From contig NZ_JAINVZ010000004.1 in assembly GCF_019890615.1 (NCBI RefSeq), forward strand, positions 186,001 through 250,000: a stretch of 64,000 nucleotides of DNA. Reading direction: 5' to 3'. This document shows positions 43,760-50,728 of the stretch, one piece after another. This DNA is from Streptantibioticus parmotrematis (GTDB lineage Bacteria; Actinomycetota; Actinomycetes; Streptomycetales; Streptomycetaceae). Below the pieces are notes generated by a model, which had not been told where the DNA came from, made no database searches, and worked only from the letters and a program-made list of their open reading frames with translations. The position numbers and the translations under genes are program-made. Numbering within the stretch: the stretch's first letter is position 1; every line of letters starts with the position of its first letter.

Positions 43760-46753
43760 ATGGATGGCGGAACGGCGCCGGGACTGCGCTTCGCGCTCCT
43801 CGGCCCGGTACGGGCATGGCGGGGCGAGGAGACGCTGCCCGCGGGCTCGCCGCAGCAGCGTGCCCTGCTCGCCGCACTCCTGCTGCGCGGTGGCCGCACC
43901 GCGACCGCCGACGAGCTCATCGACGCGCTGTGGGGCGAGGCGCCCCCGGACAGCGCGCTGGCGGCGCTGCGCACCTACGCGTTCCGGCTGCGCAAGGTGC
44001 TCGGTGCGGACGCGCTCACCTCCGAGTCCGGCGGCTACGCGCTGCGCACCGGCGCGGACACCCTCGACGTCACGCGCGCCGAGGAGTACGCCGTCGAGGC
44101 GGAGAAGGCCCGGGCCGGCGGGGAGACCGCGCGCGCCCGCGAACTGCTGGCCCACGCACTGGACTTGTGGGACGGCGAACCGCTGGCCGGGCTGCCCGGG
44201 CCGTACGCGGAGGCGTACCGCACCCGGCTGTCGGAACGGCGGCTGGCGCTGCTGGAGACCCGCCTCGAACTCGACCTGGAACTCGGCGGTCACACCGACG
44301 CGGTCTCGGTGCTGACCACGCTGTCCGCGGAACACCCCTTGCGGGAGCGGCTGCGCGCCCTGCTGATGCTCGCCCTCTACCGCAGCGGCCGGCAGGCGGA
44401 GGCGCTCGGCGTCTACGCCGACACCCGGCGGCTGCTCGCGGAGGAGCTGGGCGTCGACCCGTGCGCCGAGCTGAACGAGCTGTACCAGCGCATCCTGCGC
44501 GCCGACCCCGATCTGGCGGCGCAGCCCACCGGCGCCGAGGACGCCCCGGCCGCGGGTTCGGCCGTGCGTCCCGCCCAACTCCCTGCGGCGGTAGTGGACT
44601 TCACCGGCCGGACCGCTTTCGTCGACGAGCTGGTGGAGGAGTTGTCCACGGCGGATTCGGGTGTCATGGCCCTGTCCGCGGTGGCGGGCATCGGCGGCGT
44701 CGGCAAGACCACGCTCGCCGTCCACGTCGCCCACGCGGCCCGCGACGCCTTCCCCGACGGGCAGTTGTACGTGGACCTGCAAGGCCAGGACGCCAGGCCG
44801 TCCGAGCCGGAGACCGTACTCGCCTCGTTCCTGCGGGCGTTGGGCACGCCGGACGCCGCGATCCCGGAGGGCCTGGAGGACCGCGCCGCGCTCTACCGCT
44901 CGGTGCTCGACGGCCGCCGGGTGCTCGCGCTGCTCGACAACGCGCACGACGCCGCGCAGGTGCGCCCGCTGCTGCCCGGCACGCCCGGCTGCGCGGCGCT
45001 GATCACCTCGCGGGTGCGGATGGTGGACCTGGCGGGGGCGCACCTGGTGGACCTGGACGTGATGAGCCCGGAGGAAGCGCTCCAGCTCTTCACGAAGATC
45101 GTGGGCACGGAACGGGTGATGACGGAGCGTCAGGCCGCGCTGGACGTGGTGGCCGCGTGCGGCTTCCTGCCGCTGGCCATCCGCATCGCCGCATCCCGGC
45201 TCGCGACCCGGCGCACCTGGACGGTCTCCGTGCTGGCCCGCAAGCTCAGCGACAGCAGGCGCCGCCTGGACGAGCTGAAGGCGGGCGACCTGGCGGTCAA
45301 GGCGACGTTCGAACTCGGCTACGGCCAGCTCGCCGACCACCAGGCCCGCGCGTTCCGCCTGCTGGCGCTCCCCGAGGGCCCCGACATCTCGCTGGACGCG
45401 GCGGCGGCCGTGCTCGACATGGACGCCTACGAGGCGGAGGAACTGCTGGAGGCCCTGGTCGACATCAGCCTCCTGGAATCCGCCGCCCCCGCCCGCTACC
45501 GCTACCACGACCTGCTGCGGCTGTACGCCCGCGACCGCGCGGAGCAGCACGAGACCCCGGCGGACCGCCGGGCGGCGCTCTCCCGGCTGCTGGACTTCTA
45601 CCTGGCGACGGCGGCCAGCGCCTACGAGATGGAGAACCCGGGCGACCGCGTCCTGTCCCACATGGCACCGACCTCGCGGGAGGGACGGACGTTCACCACC
45701 CAGGCGGAAAGCCTGGAGTGGCTGTTCACGGAGGCGACAGGCGTGCTGGCCGCGGTACGGCAGGCCTCCGGCGCCTCGGGGGCCGAGCAGGTCCGGCAGC
45801 CCGGGGAGGAATCCGTACGCGCGGAGCGGACGACGGGGGCCGGATGCCTGCGGCGGGCCGTCGACCTGCTGTTCATGACGCAGAACCTGATGGAGTCCGG
45901 CGTTCACGCCCGCGCCTACGAGCAGTGCGCCCAGGCGGTGGCGACGGCGGCCACCGGGAGCGGGGACGCCTTGGTGGAAGGCCGGGCGCGGGTGCTGCTC
46001 GGGCGCATCCAGAGCTGGTCCAGCAGCCGCTGGGCGGAGGCCGATGTCCAGGCACAACGCGCCCAGTTGCTGGGCCTCGCCAGCGAGGATCTGCTGACCT
46101 GCAGCTACGCCCCCAACCTGCGCAGTCTGATCGCTCGCGACCAGCGCAGGTTCGCCGAGGCGGAGGAGTACTGCCTGCACGCGCTGCGGTCCTTCCGGGA
46201 CGACCACAACGAACACGGCGCGGCGTCCGCTCTCAGCAACATCGCCCGAGTCCGCATCGAACTCGGCCAGCCCGACGCCGCGATCGACGCGGCCGAGCAG
46301 GGCGTGACCCTCATGCGCAGGATCGGCGCGGGCTACCGGCTGGGCAACAGCCTCTACGCCCTGGCCATCGCCCTGACGGTCAGCGGCCGCCTCGACGAAG
46401 CGCTGACGGCGCTGGACGAGGCGCTGGCCATCTTCCGCGACGCCCGCCAACCGTTGTGGGAGGGCCTGACGCTCTACCGGATGGCCGACGTCCACTTCAC
46501 GGCGGGCCACTTCAGGCTGGCCGCGACGCACGCGGAGCAGTCACTCGTCCTGCTCAACGAGGGCAGCGGTCACTGGATGAGGACGTACGCGCTCACGGTT
46601 CTGGGCCACGCGCTGGACGGCATCGGCCAGCCGGACCGCGCCCGGGCCTGCTGGCGGGACGCGCTGGACTCGTCCCCCGACCCGAAGAGCGGCGAGGCGC
46701 AGAAATTGCGGCTACTCCTGGAGCGGCCCGCAGCGTCGGCTCTGGCGGTCTGA
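43760..46753 (+). CDS. afsR: AfsR global regulator (SARP - NB-ARC - TPR)
   Basis: A 997-aa protein, close to the roughly 993 aa I recall for S. coelicolor AfsR. An N-terminal OmpR-like winged helix (residues about 10-100) and BTAD (about 100-250) form the SARP part. An NB-ARC ATPase follows, with Walker A GIGGVGKTT at 310-318. C-terminal TPR repeats (about 720-990) include RRFAEAEEYCLHALRSF and GRLDEALTALDEALAIF. AfsR is phosphorylated by AfsK, binds the afsS promoter and raises secondary metabolism. GGGAAACGGAG precedes the ATG, and TATACA at about 43711 is a possible -10. Its neighbours (a small gene in the afsS position, and afsK) support the name. Confidence 0.9.
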   Translation: MDGGTAPGLRFALLGPVRAWRGEETLPAGSPQQRALLAALLLRGGRTATADELIDALWGEAPPDSALAALRTYAFRLRKVLGADALTSESGGYALRTGADTLDVTRAEEYAVEAEKARAGGETARARELLAHALDLWDGEPLAGLPGPYAEAYRTRLSERRLALLETRLELDLELGGHTDAVSVLTTLSAEHPLRERLRALLMLALYRSGRQAEALGVYADTRRLLAEELGVDPCAELNELYQRILRADPDLAAQPTGAEDAPAAGSAVRPAQLPAAVVDFTGRTAFVDELVEELSTADSGVMALSAVAGIGGVGKTTLAVHVAHAARDAFPDGQLYVDLQGQDARPSEPETVLASFLRALGTPDAAIPEGLEDRAALYRSVLDGRRVLALLDNAHDAAQVRPLLPGTPGCAALITSRVRMVDLAGAHLVDLDVMSPEEALQLFTKIVGTERVMTERQAALDVVAACGFLPLAIRIAASRLATRRTWTVSVLARKLSDSRRRLDELKAGDLAVKATFELGYGQLADHQARAFRLLALPEGPDISLDAAAAVLDMDAYEAEELLEALVDISLLESAAPARYRYHDLLRLYARDRAEQHETPADRRAALSRLLDFYLATAASAYEMENPGDRVLSHMAPTSREGRTFTTQAESLEWLFTEATGVLAAVRQASGASGAEQVRQPGEESVRAERTTGAGCLRRAVDLLFMTQNLMESGVHARAYEQCAQAVATAATGSGDALVEGRARVLLGRIQSWSSSRWAEADVQAQRAQLLGLASEDLLTCSYAPNLRSLIARDQRRFAEAEEYCLHALRSFRDDHNEHGAASALSNIARVRIELGQPDAAIDAAEQGVTLMRRIGAGYRLGNSLYALAIALTVSGRLDEALTALDEALAIFRDARQPLWEGLTLYRMADVHFTAGHFRLAATHAEQSLVLLNEGSGHWMRTYALTVLGHALDGIGQPDRARACWRDALDSSPDPKSGEAQKLRLLLERPAASALAV

Positions 46754-46802: not shown

Positions 46803-46835
46803 GTTTATCGGTTGCTTATCGACTGCTGCCAGGAT
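46803..46835 (+). promoter_or_regulatory. Candidate AfsR (SARP) or PHO-type box
   Basis: Two direct repeats in 11-bp register, GTTTATCGGTT (46803-46813) and GCTTATCGACT (46814-46824), share TTATCG. A possible -10, CAGGAT (46830-46835), lies about 8 nt after the second heptamer. This is the spacing SARP regulators use (11-bp repeats just upstream of the -10). PhoP boxes have the same 11-bp period, and both AfsR and PhoP are known to act on afsS in S. coelicolor. Confidence 0.6.
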
Positions 46836-46925: not shown

Positions 46926-47111
46926 ATGGACACCAACATTCCGAACGACGGCAAGGGGCAGCGTCCCGGCTTCGACCTCGGCGCGGGCGTCGGCGACCTG
47001 CTGGGGAACCGCGCGCCGAAGGAGCAGCCGCCCGCTCCCGTGGAGGAAGCGGAGGAGACGCCGAAGGACGGCAAGCCCGTCATCGGCCCTGACAACTGGC
47101 AGAACGGCTGA
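46926..47111 (+). CDS. 61-aa protein in the afsS position, ending PDNWQNG
   Basis: ATG 46926 has an excellent ribosome site (GGGGAGA, 5 nt upstream), so this tiny gene is very likely translated. The product is hydrophilic and Gly/Pro/Glu-rich. It begins MDTNIPNDGKGQRPGF, has an EEAEETPKDGKP middle and ends VIGPDNWQNG, with no signal peptide. It is the same size as S. coelicolor AfsS (63 aa, from memory) and sits in the same place, 172 nt after afsR. AfsS proteins carry D-N-H-M-P repeats; here a single D-N-W occurs at the C-terminus. It may be a divergent AfsS activator or a peptide precursor. Confidence 0.75.
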   Translation: MDTNIPNDGKGQRPGFDLGAGVGDLLGNRAPKEQPPAPVEEAEETPKDGKPVIGPDNWQNG

Positions 47112-47142
47112 TCCCAGCCGCGACGCCGGCTCGGAGCTCCTC

Positions 47143-47242
47143 GGGGGAACGGGGGAACACGGGGGTACGGGGGAGAACGACACGGGGGAACAACGGGGAC
47201 GGGGGACAAACGGGGCCCGCGGGGGAAGCACGTGAACGGGGG
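47143..47242 (+). repeat. Ten G-tracts between the two small genes
   Basis: In 100 nt there are ten runs of four or five G (first at 47143, then 47151, 47161, 47169, 47184, 47195, 47201, 47212, 47221, 47238), separated by short A/C-rich spacers such as AAC and ACAAAC. On the plus-strand transcript this could form tandem G-quadruplexes. Confidence 0.85.
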
Positions 47243-47379
47243 AACCCGGACCAAGTAAGGGCCGTACACGGCGCGTTCACCGCGTACGCGATGCCGGCCG
47301 TAGCGCGGAGGGGGCGCCACGGCCGGTGTCCGGCGTACGCCCTTTTCCGGAATCAGCCACTCCGACCATGGAGCAGACA

Positions 47380-47526
47380 ATGAGTCTCATACGCAGGGCC
47401 GCCCTCGTGGTGGCCGGGACGGCGGCAATCGTCGCCGCCATCGTGATACCGGCGACGGCGGCCAACGCGTCCACGCCGACCGGTATCAGCGCGGCCGTCC
47501 AGCCCGACAACTGGGCGTCCGGCTGA
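47380..47526 (+). CDS. 48-aa secreted peptide precursor ending PDNWASG
   Basis: ATG 47380 has GGAG 6 nt upstream; an ATG at 47368 in the same frame lacks a site. Residues 1-30 are a classic Sec signal peptide: MSLIRR, a hydrophobic core of Val/Ala/Ile, then TAANA. Cleavage after ANA would release an 18-residue peptide, STPTGISAAVQPDNWASG. Its last seven residues follow the same P-D-N-W-x-x-G-stop pattern as the 61-aa protein upstream. A strong terminator follows 20 nt later. It does not match a family I know; an exported signalling peptide or RiPP-like precursor is possible. Confidence 0.7.
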   Translation: MSLIRRAALVVAGTAAIVAAIVIPATAANASTPTGISAAVQPDNWASG

Positions 47527-47545: not shown

Positions 47546-47588
47546 GGGGTGGCGACGGCACCGGGGGGTCCGTCGCCACCCCTTTTTT
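47546..47588 (+). terminator. Rho-independent terminator of the afsR-peptide region
   Basis: A 13-bp perfect stem (GGGGTGGCGACGG with CCGTCGCCACCCC), 11-nt loop and TTTTTT. It is one of the few hairpins in the window with a true T-run. Confidence 0.9.
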
Positions 47589-47681: not shown

Positions 47682-50147
<2,466 letters not shown>

Positions 50148-50728
50148 TGCCCTGCCACCTCCCCGTCCCCCGAATTCTTGCAGCCCCGGGCGACCACTCA
50201 CCGCCGACCGCCCCGGGGTCGGCTGCTGATTCTTCCTGGGATACGTCCCGGTTGCGAACCCGGGGCGCGCGCCCGTGTGGCGCACCCCGCCCCCGTCCAC
50301 CCCGCGCCCCCACGGACCCGCAGGTCAGACCACATCCGGGCACTTCGGCCGACCCCGCCCTTACCTCGAAGACGGCGAGTCGGCCCACAGAAGAGGGGAA
50401 AGGGCTTTTTGTCGGATGTATCGGTTGATTCGGTGTATATCAGCGGGGTGGATTGTCGGTACGGCGGTACGGCAGGACGACGCGCGGCGGGGGCGGCGGT
50501 GCGGCGGGCTCGCAGGGTCCGGGGGCCTGCGGGCTCGCGAGGTCGGTGGACCTGCGGGCGCGCGGGGGCGGCGGGCCCGGCGGGCCTGCGGAAGCGCCGG
50601 GCAGCAGGCTCGCGAAGACGACGGGCCTGCGGGCGTGCGGGGGCGGTGGGCACGGCGGGCCGGCGGAGGGCGGCACGGGCAGCGGGGCCGAGGCGCCGGG
50701 GCCGGGGCGTGCGAGCCGGGGCGGGTGC
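50148..50728. other. Gene-free leader of afsK with GC-rich repeats
   Basis: No gene is supported. Positions 50405-50450 form an AT-rich island (TGTATCGGTTGATTCGGTG, then TATATCAG) that probably carries the afsK promoter. From 50470 to 50720 there are degenerate repeats of GCCTGCGGGCNCGCGGGGGC type. Confidence 0.5.

Follow-up and report, generated by a model that had tools for sequence, protein, structure and literature searches.

Covariation of AfsS cores with the AfsR sensor points to a peptide signaling code in Streptomyces and relatives

AfsS, a small protein, contains a short sequence core that varies between species in step with the C-terminal sensor half of AfsR, the regulator encoded next to it, and as judged from this covariation AfsS is very likely the ligand of that sensor. 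AfsS is a tiny pleiotropic activator of antibiotic production that has been known for about 30 years; to our knowledge, it has no known mode of action. A 2024 structural study says that it is not known if the AfsR sensor binds anything (PMC10936776), and the literature that we searched, subscription papers lying outside its scope, held no paper tying AfsS to this sensor. The covariation would provide one answer to both questions, the mode of AfsS and the ligand of AfsR, in the form of a residue-level code that is open to simple peptide-binding assays. Together with an exported mimic of the AfsS core, these proteins point to an unrecognized peptide signaling code controlling antibiotic production. 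Genes assignable to this system are found throughout Streptomyces and relatives, the exported gene in about a third of loci. If the interpretation is true, peptide-TPR signaling, so far from Firmicutes, would extend to the main antibiotic-producing bacteria, and strain-specific peptides might be used for waking or silencing antibiotic gene clusters.

The DNA that we analyzed (the window) is a stretch of 64,000 nucleotides from Streptantibioticus parmotrematis. Its afsR gene (43,760-46,753, + strand) encodes a 997-residue SARP-NOD-arm-TPR regulator with Pfam BTAD, NB-ARC, and TPR matches, which scores 1434 bits against the NF053617 equivalog (cut-off 1430). The convergent gene (47,682-50,300, - strand) is afsK, encoding a Ser/Thr kinase with a PQQ beta-propeller (NF053615, 1357 bits against a cut-off of 1300, the match running from residue 53). 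With both above their equivalog cut-offs, these neighbors are true AfsR and AfsK. Between them lie two small ORFs on the + strand (46,926-47,111, 61 aa; 47,380-47,526, 48 aa), both starting with ATG behind a GGAG-type ribosome site. The unit is closed by an intrinsic terminator recognized by folding (47,546-47,588, + strand), in which a hairpin at 47,546-47,582 (-38 kcal/mol, z -3.1) is followed by T6; a simple terminator scanner with a loop limit misses this hairpin. The 61-aa protein has no signal peptide and ends in PDNWQNG; the 48-aa protein begins with a Sec-type N-terminus (MSLIRR, a hydrophobic stretch, and AxA), has the predicted mature sequence STPTGISAAVQPDNWASG, and ends in PDNWASG. 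The motif is flush with the stop codon in both. On all of these points, from the identity of the neighbors to the ribosome sites, signal peptide, and terminator, our results agree with the first-pass annotation, which was made from the sequence alone.

The 61-aa gene is afsS, as identified from its sequence context, because it lies directly 3' of afsR, its start at 46,926 falling about 170-175 nt past the afsR stop, and because a perfect afs-box-like direct repeat precedes it (TTATCG-N5-TTATCG; 46,805-46,821, + strand). The TTATCG hexamers are spaced with an 11-bp period, and the window copy matches at 12 of 12 positions; at a threshold of at least 10 of 12 matches, 205 of 230 afsR-afsS intergenic regions contain the repeat, compared with 1 of 230 after shuffling. 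Pfam/NCBIfam-type family libraries gave no useful match for the 61-aa or the 48-aa protein, and low-threshold protein searches with these two short queries returned mostly chance matches beyond close relatives. A route based on AfsR succeeded, yielding 232 distinct regions downstream of afsR, of which 225 extend 1.36 kb or more past the gene. An AfsS-like gene sits directly after afsR in nearly every AfsR locus read, and the orthologues support the assignment. AfsR-like proteins of about 42%-53% identity, from other genera or encoded as second copies, had no AfsS-like gene in the downstream stretch read; AfsS pairing therefore belongs to true AfsR. One such second copy (L368, 44% identity) is encoded on contig C9 of the window's own genome.

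The genes, their order, and the afs-box-like promoter are those of the Streptomyces coelicolor AfsR-AfsS-AfsK system, in which there are likewise two genes between afsK and afsR (PMC10936776). S. coelicolor AfsS contains a 12-residue segment repeated three times (PMC2267785), a feature absent from the window protein, which has one core. A further difference is that the papers searched give no mode of action for AfsS and no inducer of AfsR, whereas we propose AfsS as the ligand.

The window core, PDNWQNG (47,088-47,108, + strand), is proposed as the ligand from its co-inheritance with the AfsR sensor and belongs to a PDNWxxx type; in Streptomyces the core is typically D-x-H-x-x. Across the 225 loci, the core is usually repeated and uniform inside a gene and hypervariable between species. 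Examples include four copies of DMHATG, three of DQHATG, four of ENHAGS, and up to nine of DSNRPIQPM; we counted 88 different His-type pentamers, and the other types are PDNW, PDTW, PDNF, PDNQ, and DSNRP. The window AfsS has a single core, members of its clade have one or two, and Streptomyces proteins have 2-9, so repeat number is variable within the orthologue group. Uniformity within a gene combined with hypervariability between species is the pattern of a specificity peptide and not of a structural repeat. At three loci (L296, L343, and L348), AfsS lacks His and has as many as nine DSNRPIQP repeats; the exported partners carry several DNNRP copies each at two of these loci and DSHIP/DSHFP at L348.

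Inheritance of the core follows one half of AfsR. In 174 Streptomyces loci, core distance correlated with TPR distance after control for SARP and NOD (partial Mantel r 0.57, 0 of 200 permutations), and the value for the core and NOD given SARP was 0.10. Among loci whose AfsR N-terminal halves are less than 3% apart, the TPR halves differ by 4.8% when the core is the same (34 pairs) and by 37% when it is different (51 pairs). Same-core and different-core pairs look alike through AfsR residue 600 and split sharply from residue 601 to the C-terminus; the split persists across the intergenic region and afsS but disappears past the afsS stop (0.69 versus 0.71 identity). The polymorphic half, delimited by this mismatch profile, by AlphaFold, and by PDB matches, comprises the arm and TPR sensor (residues 601-997; 45,560-46,750, + strand). 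From these boundaries, AfsR(601-997) and afsS appear to behave as one exchangeable cassette between conserved flanks. Pherotype cassettes such as ComQXP and Agr have this organization: hypervariability and joint inheritance are confined to the ligand and the sensor half of the receptor, and the flanks are conserved. At AfsR-AfsS, a hypervariable ligand candidate and sensor half covary in the same way within conserved flanks. The differences are that AfsR is a cytosolic STAND activator, that AfsS is not exported, and that a second, exported near-copy is present.

Part of the association between AfsS and the sensor is linkage, the two being neighbors. Linkage might even be the whole of it, with the C-terminal half of AfsR and afsS exchanged together merely as neighbors and AfsS acting elsewhere; the afsR-afsS gap of about 175 nt and the recombination-like cassette boundaries fit such an account. 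We nevertheless consider it unlikely, since residue-specific covariation survives control for both sensor and N-terminal distance. When AfsR columns were tested against core positions with these controls in 132 thinned sequences, core position 2 paired with AfsR 787 (partial r 0.59, z 8.8; runner-up column 0.29). Position 1 paired with residue 860, position 4 with residue 793 (partial r 0.42), and position 5 with residues 903 (partial r 0.59) and 943. The residue pairs at position 2 and 787 were N-D in 54 of 55 cases, S-E in 24 of 28, G-E in 9 of 9, A-Q in 10 of 10, M-A in 13 of 13, and Q-A in 10 of 13, a chemically sensible set. At position 1, D or E accompanied R860 in 147 of 147 cases and N accompanied K in 21 of 23. 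Such pairing holds across core backgrounds (N-D in DNHAS, DNHAT, DNHQP, and ENHAG; S-E in DSHMT, DSHAS, and ESHIT), and the paired residues are complementary in size or charge, neither of which agrees with linkage alone.

Linkage also fails to predict which columns come first. In 80 disjoint nearest pairs covering 562 AfsR columns, 787 was the top column for core position 2 (p 5e-11) and 793 for core position 4 (p 4e-9); the expected columns for positions 1 and 5 were not singled out in these pairs, changes there being too rare. Nor does linkage predict the enrichment of the strongest covarying residues at canonical TPR ligand positions (6, 2, 12, 13, and 34; p 0.0009), AfsR 903 occupying position 2. 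More of the strongly covarying residues lie at TPR helix ends (positions 39, 36, and 32). Contacts were judged from the TPR register rather than from distances, the structure models being single chains.

In the window, the corresponding AfsR codons, all on the + strand, are 787 (L; 46,118-46,120), the partner of core position 2 in Streptomyces as judged from covariation; 793 (R; 46,136-46,138), the predicted partner of position 4; 860 (R; 46,337-46,339), the predicted partner of position 1 from residue pairing; and 903 (L; 46,466-46,468), the predicted partner of position 5. The code derives from His-type Streptomyces cores, and its application to the Trp-type core of the window's clade, which has few members, is an extrapolation. 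In this clade, the residues that pair with core D1 (D815, N817, and R860) are the same and residue 787 is L, so only the contacts of core position 1 would carry over directly.

The predicted structure of the sensor resembles that of peptide receptors. AlphaFold models window AfsR 601-997 as a TPR superhelix (pLDDT 93.3, pTM 0.90), and the nearest PDB matches are peptide-bound TPR proteins, among them APPBP2 with a degron and LGN with its ligands. Z-scores were 25.1 and 23.8 for Rap with a Phr-type pheromone, 23.6 for RapF-PhrF, 22.3 for NprR-NprX, and 21.9 for MalT domain III. The model thus resembles known peptide receptors in its build, although having the same fold does not prove the same function. 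MalT combines a NOD with a TPR-like sensor and senses maltotriose, which is thought to lift autoinhibition. AfsR shares this combination, and it differs in that we propose it to sense a peptide encoded next door instead of maltotriose.

From these observations we infer physical binding, in which the AfsS core would dock in the groove on the concave face of the AfsR superhelix and separate sensor residues would read core positions 1, 2, 4, and 5. AfsR and AfsS would then form a polymorphic lock and key, swapped between strains as one cassette in the manner of a pherotype. Ligand binding would close a feedback loop, because AfsR switches on afsS. Binding most likely activates or locks AfsR; we prefer activation because inducers so act on STAND proteins and because stimulation by extra afsS has been reported. 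AfsR binds the pstS, phoRP, and glnR promoters (PMC10936776), and pst/phoRP and nitrogen genes are disturbed in an afsS mutant (PMC2267785). AfsS has no DNA-binding features, and it may alter phosphate and nitrogen genes because AfsR, its proposed target, binds those promoters. If afsS stimulates antibiotics in cells lacking afsR, AfsS has other targets. The second gene would export a copy of the ligand with one residue changed. This precursor would be trimmed to a C-terminal peptide that probably enters the producer or neighboring cells, where it may act as a weak or competing ligand at AfsR. We judge the explanation as a whole, in which AfsS is the cognate AfsR ligand, the pair is exchanged as a cassette, and an exported copy one residue off acts at AfsR, to be probable, with room for error.

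The exported partner in the window (47,380-47,526, + strand) has orthologues with the same signal-peptide layout, and its predicted core, PDNWASG (47,503-47,523, + strand), ends at the stop codon, a placement also seen in homologues. A lack of conservation near afsR, which would have refuted the idea in the first-pass annotation, was not seen: AfsS-like genes proved near-universal at the loci examined, and a small Sec-type ORF, called by signal-peptide and ribosome-site criteria, follows afsS at 68 of 225 loci. Most pairs came from a motif-blind scan, four from loci found with a secreted-peptide profile, and three from manual entry; visual inspection was used to discard spurious ORFs, and the first ORF calling misses precursors whose true start is masked by longer frames. 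Missing from about 70% of loci, the exported gene cannot be essential to the AfsR-AfsS loop.

Exported cores track the AfsS of their own genome at a distance of one residue. They share 4 of 5 residues with it in 43 of 57 His-type pair classes, against 7.3 +/- 2.3 under random pairing (0 of 20,000), making the one-mismatch match six times commoner within a genome than by random pairing. Identity was seen in 1 of the 57 classes, against 9.5 expected if positions were independent (0 of 20,000 permutations as low), and the one-mismatch rule holds after thinning by sensor similarity (n 36, 31, and 22). Examples (AfsS/exported) are DSNRP/DNNRP, GEGHIP/GEGHLP, DKHAP/DRHAP, NVHVT/NVHIT, DDHGT/DDHGM, and PDNWVNP/PDNWVSP. 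Six loci related to the window have both genes with a shared, changing motif: the last of these examples together with PDNWSNT/PDNWSNV, PDTWGNT/PDTWGNA, PDTWGNT/PDTWGNV, PDNWSNP/PDNWGNP, and PDNWAGG/PANWGGG. Given these six loci and the within-genome excess of 4 of 5 matches in the 57 classes, the shared motif exceeds chance. The first-pass annotation had written it as PDNW-x-x-G; what is shared and conserved is P-D-[N/T]-W followed by three variable residues. We dropped the strict form because its final G varies and the DNW core occurs only in the window's clade.

That annotation had also proposed that the secreted peptide and the cytoplasmic protein bind, or compete for, one site. Its AfsS half has gained strong comparative support from co-inheritance with the AfsR sensor only, residue covariation, the TPR ligand positions, and the Rap/NprR-like sensor model. 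On the secreted side, the copy of the motif is real, lies at the C-terminus, and tracks the core of its own genome, but it is systematically one residue off and so not the same peptide; its processing, import, and competition with AfsS would follow from our model.

How the exported peptide would be used divides into two readings, which share a receptor site and which we regard as about equally likely: a self signal competing with AfsS, or interference aimed at other strains. The self signal would be a quorum-sensing pheromone of RRNPP type, re-imported as an agonist or antagonist and reporting density to the producer's own AfsR. We take this to be a serious possibility, though short of probable. 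In known RRNPP systems (Rap-Phr, NprR-NprX, and PlcR-PapR), a regulator with a C-terminal TPR groove adjoins a small Sec-type precursor with a 5-7 residue peptide at its C-terminus, and receptor and peptide types co-diversify. The AfsR sensor model lies near peptide-bound Rap and NprR and has a predicted peptide-binding TPR fold, and a small Sec-type precursor lies beside the regulator. Of 71 precursors, 38 have no more than one residue after the exported core (naive expectation 5.4), whereas AfsS mostly has 4-5 residues past its last core, and the exported motif follows the AfsS/AfsR type of its locus. The RRNPP systems known so far come from Firmicutes and phages of these bacteria (PMC10075063), whereas AfsR is a SARP-NOD-TPR STAND protein of Actinomycetota, its BTAD/SARP, NB-ARC, and TPR architecture being distinct from that of Rap, NprR, PlcR, PrgX, Rgg, or AimR. 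The co-evolving ligand here would be a cytosolic repeat protein. The patchy distribution of the exported gene and its systematic mismatch with the ligand with which the sensor co-evolves speak against a self pheromone.

That same avoidance of the own core is what interference between species would predict, the exported peptide copying the AfsS core of a neighbor or sister, jamming its AfsR, and sparing the producer. Of 64 near-self exported cores, 27 are identical to an AfsS core from a different genome in the sample (19.5 +/- 2.6 expected, p 0.004), a modest enrichment. The residue that the exported peptide carries at core position 2 is usually one not seen with the producer's own 787 residue, and some precursors carry several foreign types. 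In Streptomyces sp. Ncost-T10-10d (L169), where the AfsS core is DMHAT, the exported precursor contains DSHMT, DTHAT, and ENHAG, each an AfsS core elsewhere. Against interference, the exported core in the window's clade closely resembles the producer's own AfsS core, and the exported peptide is not known to be taken up by other cells. We give it much the same standing as the self pheromone, as an open contender and not the expected outcome. A broader, more tentative idea is a self/non-self code in which a cell's own AfsS reads its polymorphic AfsR sensor and mismatched copies, exported by many strains, spare self and target AfsR in related or competing strains.

Two readings place the exported gene outside AfsR signaling. 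It could encode a peptide derived from afsS whose role outside the cell is unrelated, such as metal binding or antimicrobial activity; mature N-termini such as DQHAT, DNHIP, and DSHRP fit the amino-terminal Cu/Ni-binding layout. This seems improbable to us, as it leaves the one-mismatch tracking of the local core unexplained, and W- and NRP-type cores contain no His for metal binding. In many Streptomyces (L111, L122, L183, L188, and others), cleavage after AxA would leave D-x-H at the start of the mature exported peptide, again the Cu/Ni-binding layout. The 48-aa gene could alternatively be a RiPP precursor of the FxSxx/cyclophane kind, a group that also uses TPR proteins, and AfsR does match the NCBIfam family HaaT weakly. 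At 298 bits, this match is below the family cut-off of 1125, and no radical SAM enzyme was seen among eight neighboring ORFs scanned, several of which had no match of any kind; we consider a RiPP precursor highly improbable. AfsK was set aside as a candidate peptide receptor: no exported domain was seen by eye, and in Streptomyces afsK lies up to several kb away.

Two further features of these loci were observed. In Streptomyces anulatus NRRL B-2873 (L124), the exported gene, at about 575-824 downstream of afsR, is apparently frameshifted past the signal peptide; the out-of-frame stretch still reads DNHATG...DNHAT, and the local AfsS has DQHATG. In the window, the stretch separating afsS from the exported gene is filled with G-rich near-repeats of GGGGGAAC/ACGGGGG (47,142-47,250), possibly a structural or regulatory element.
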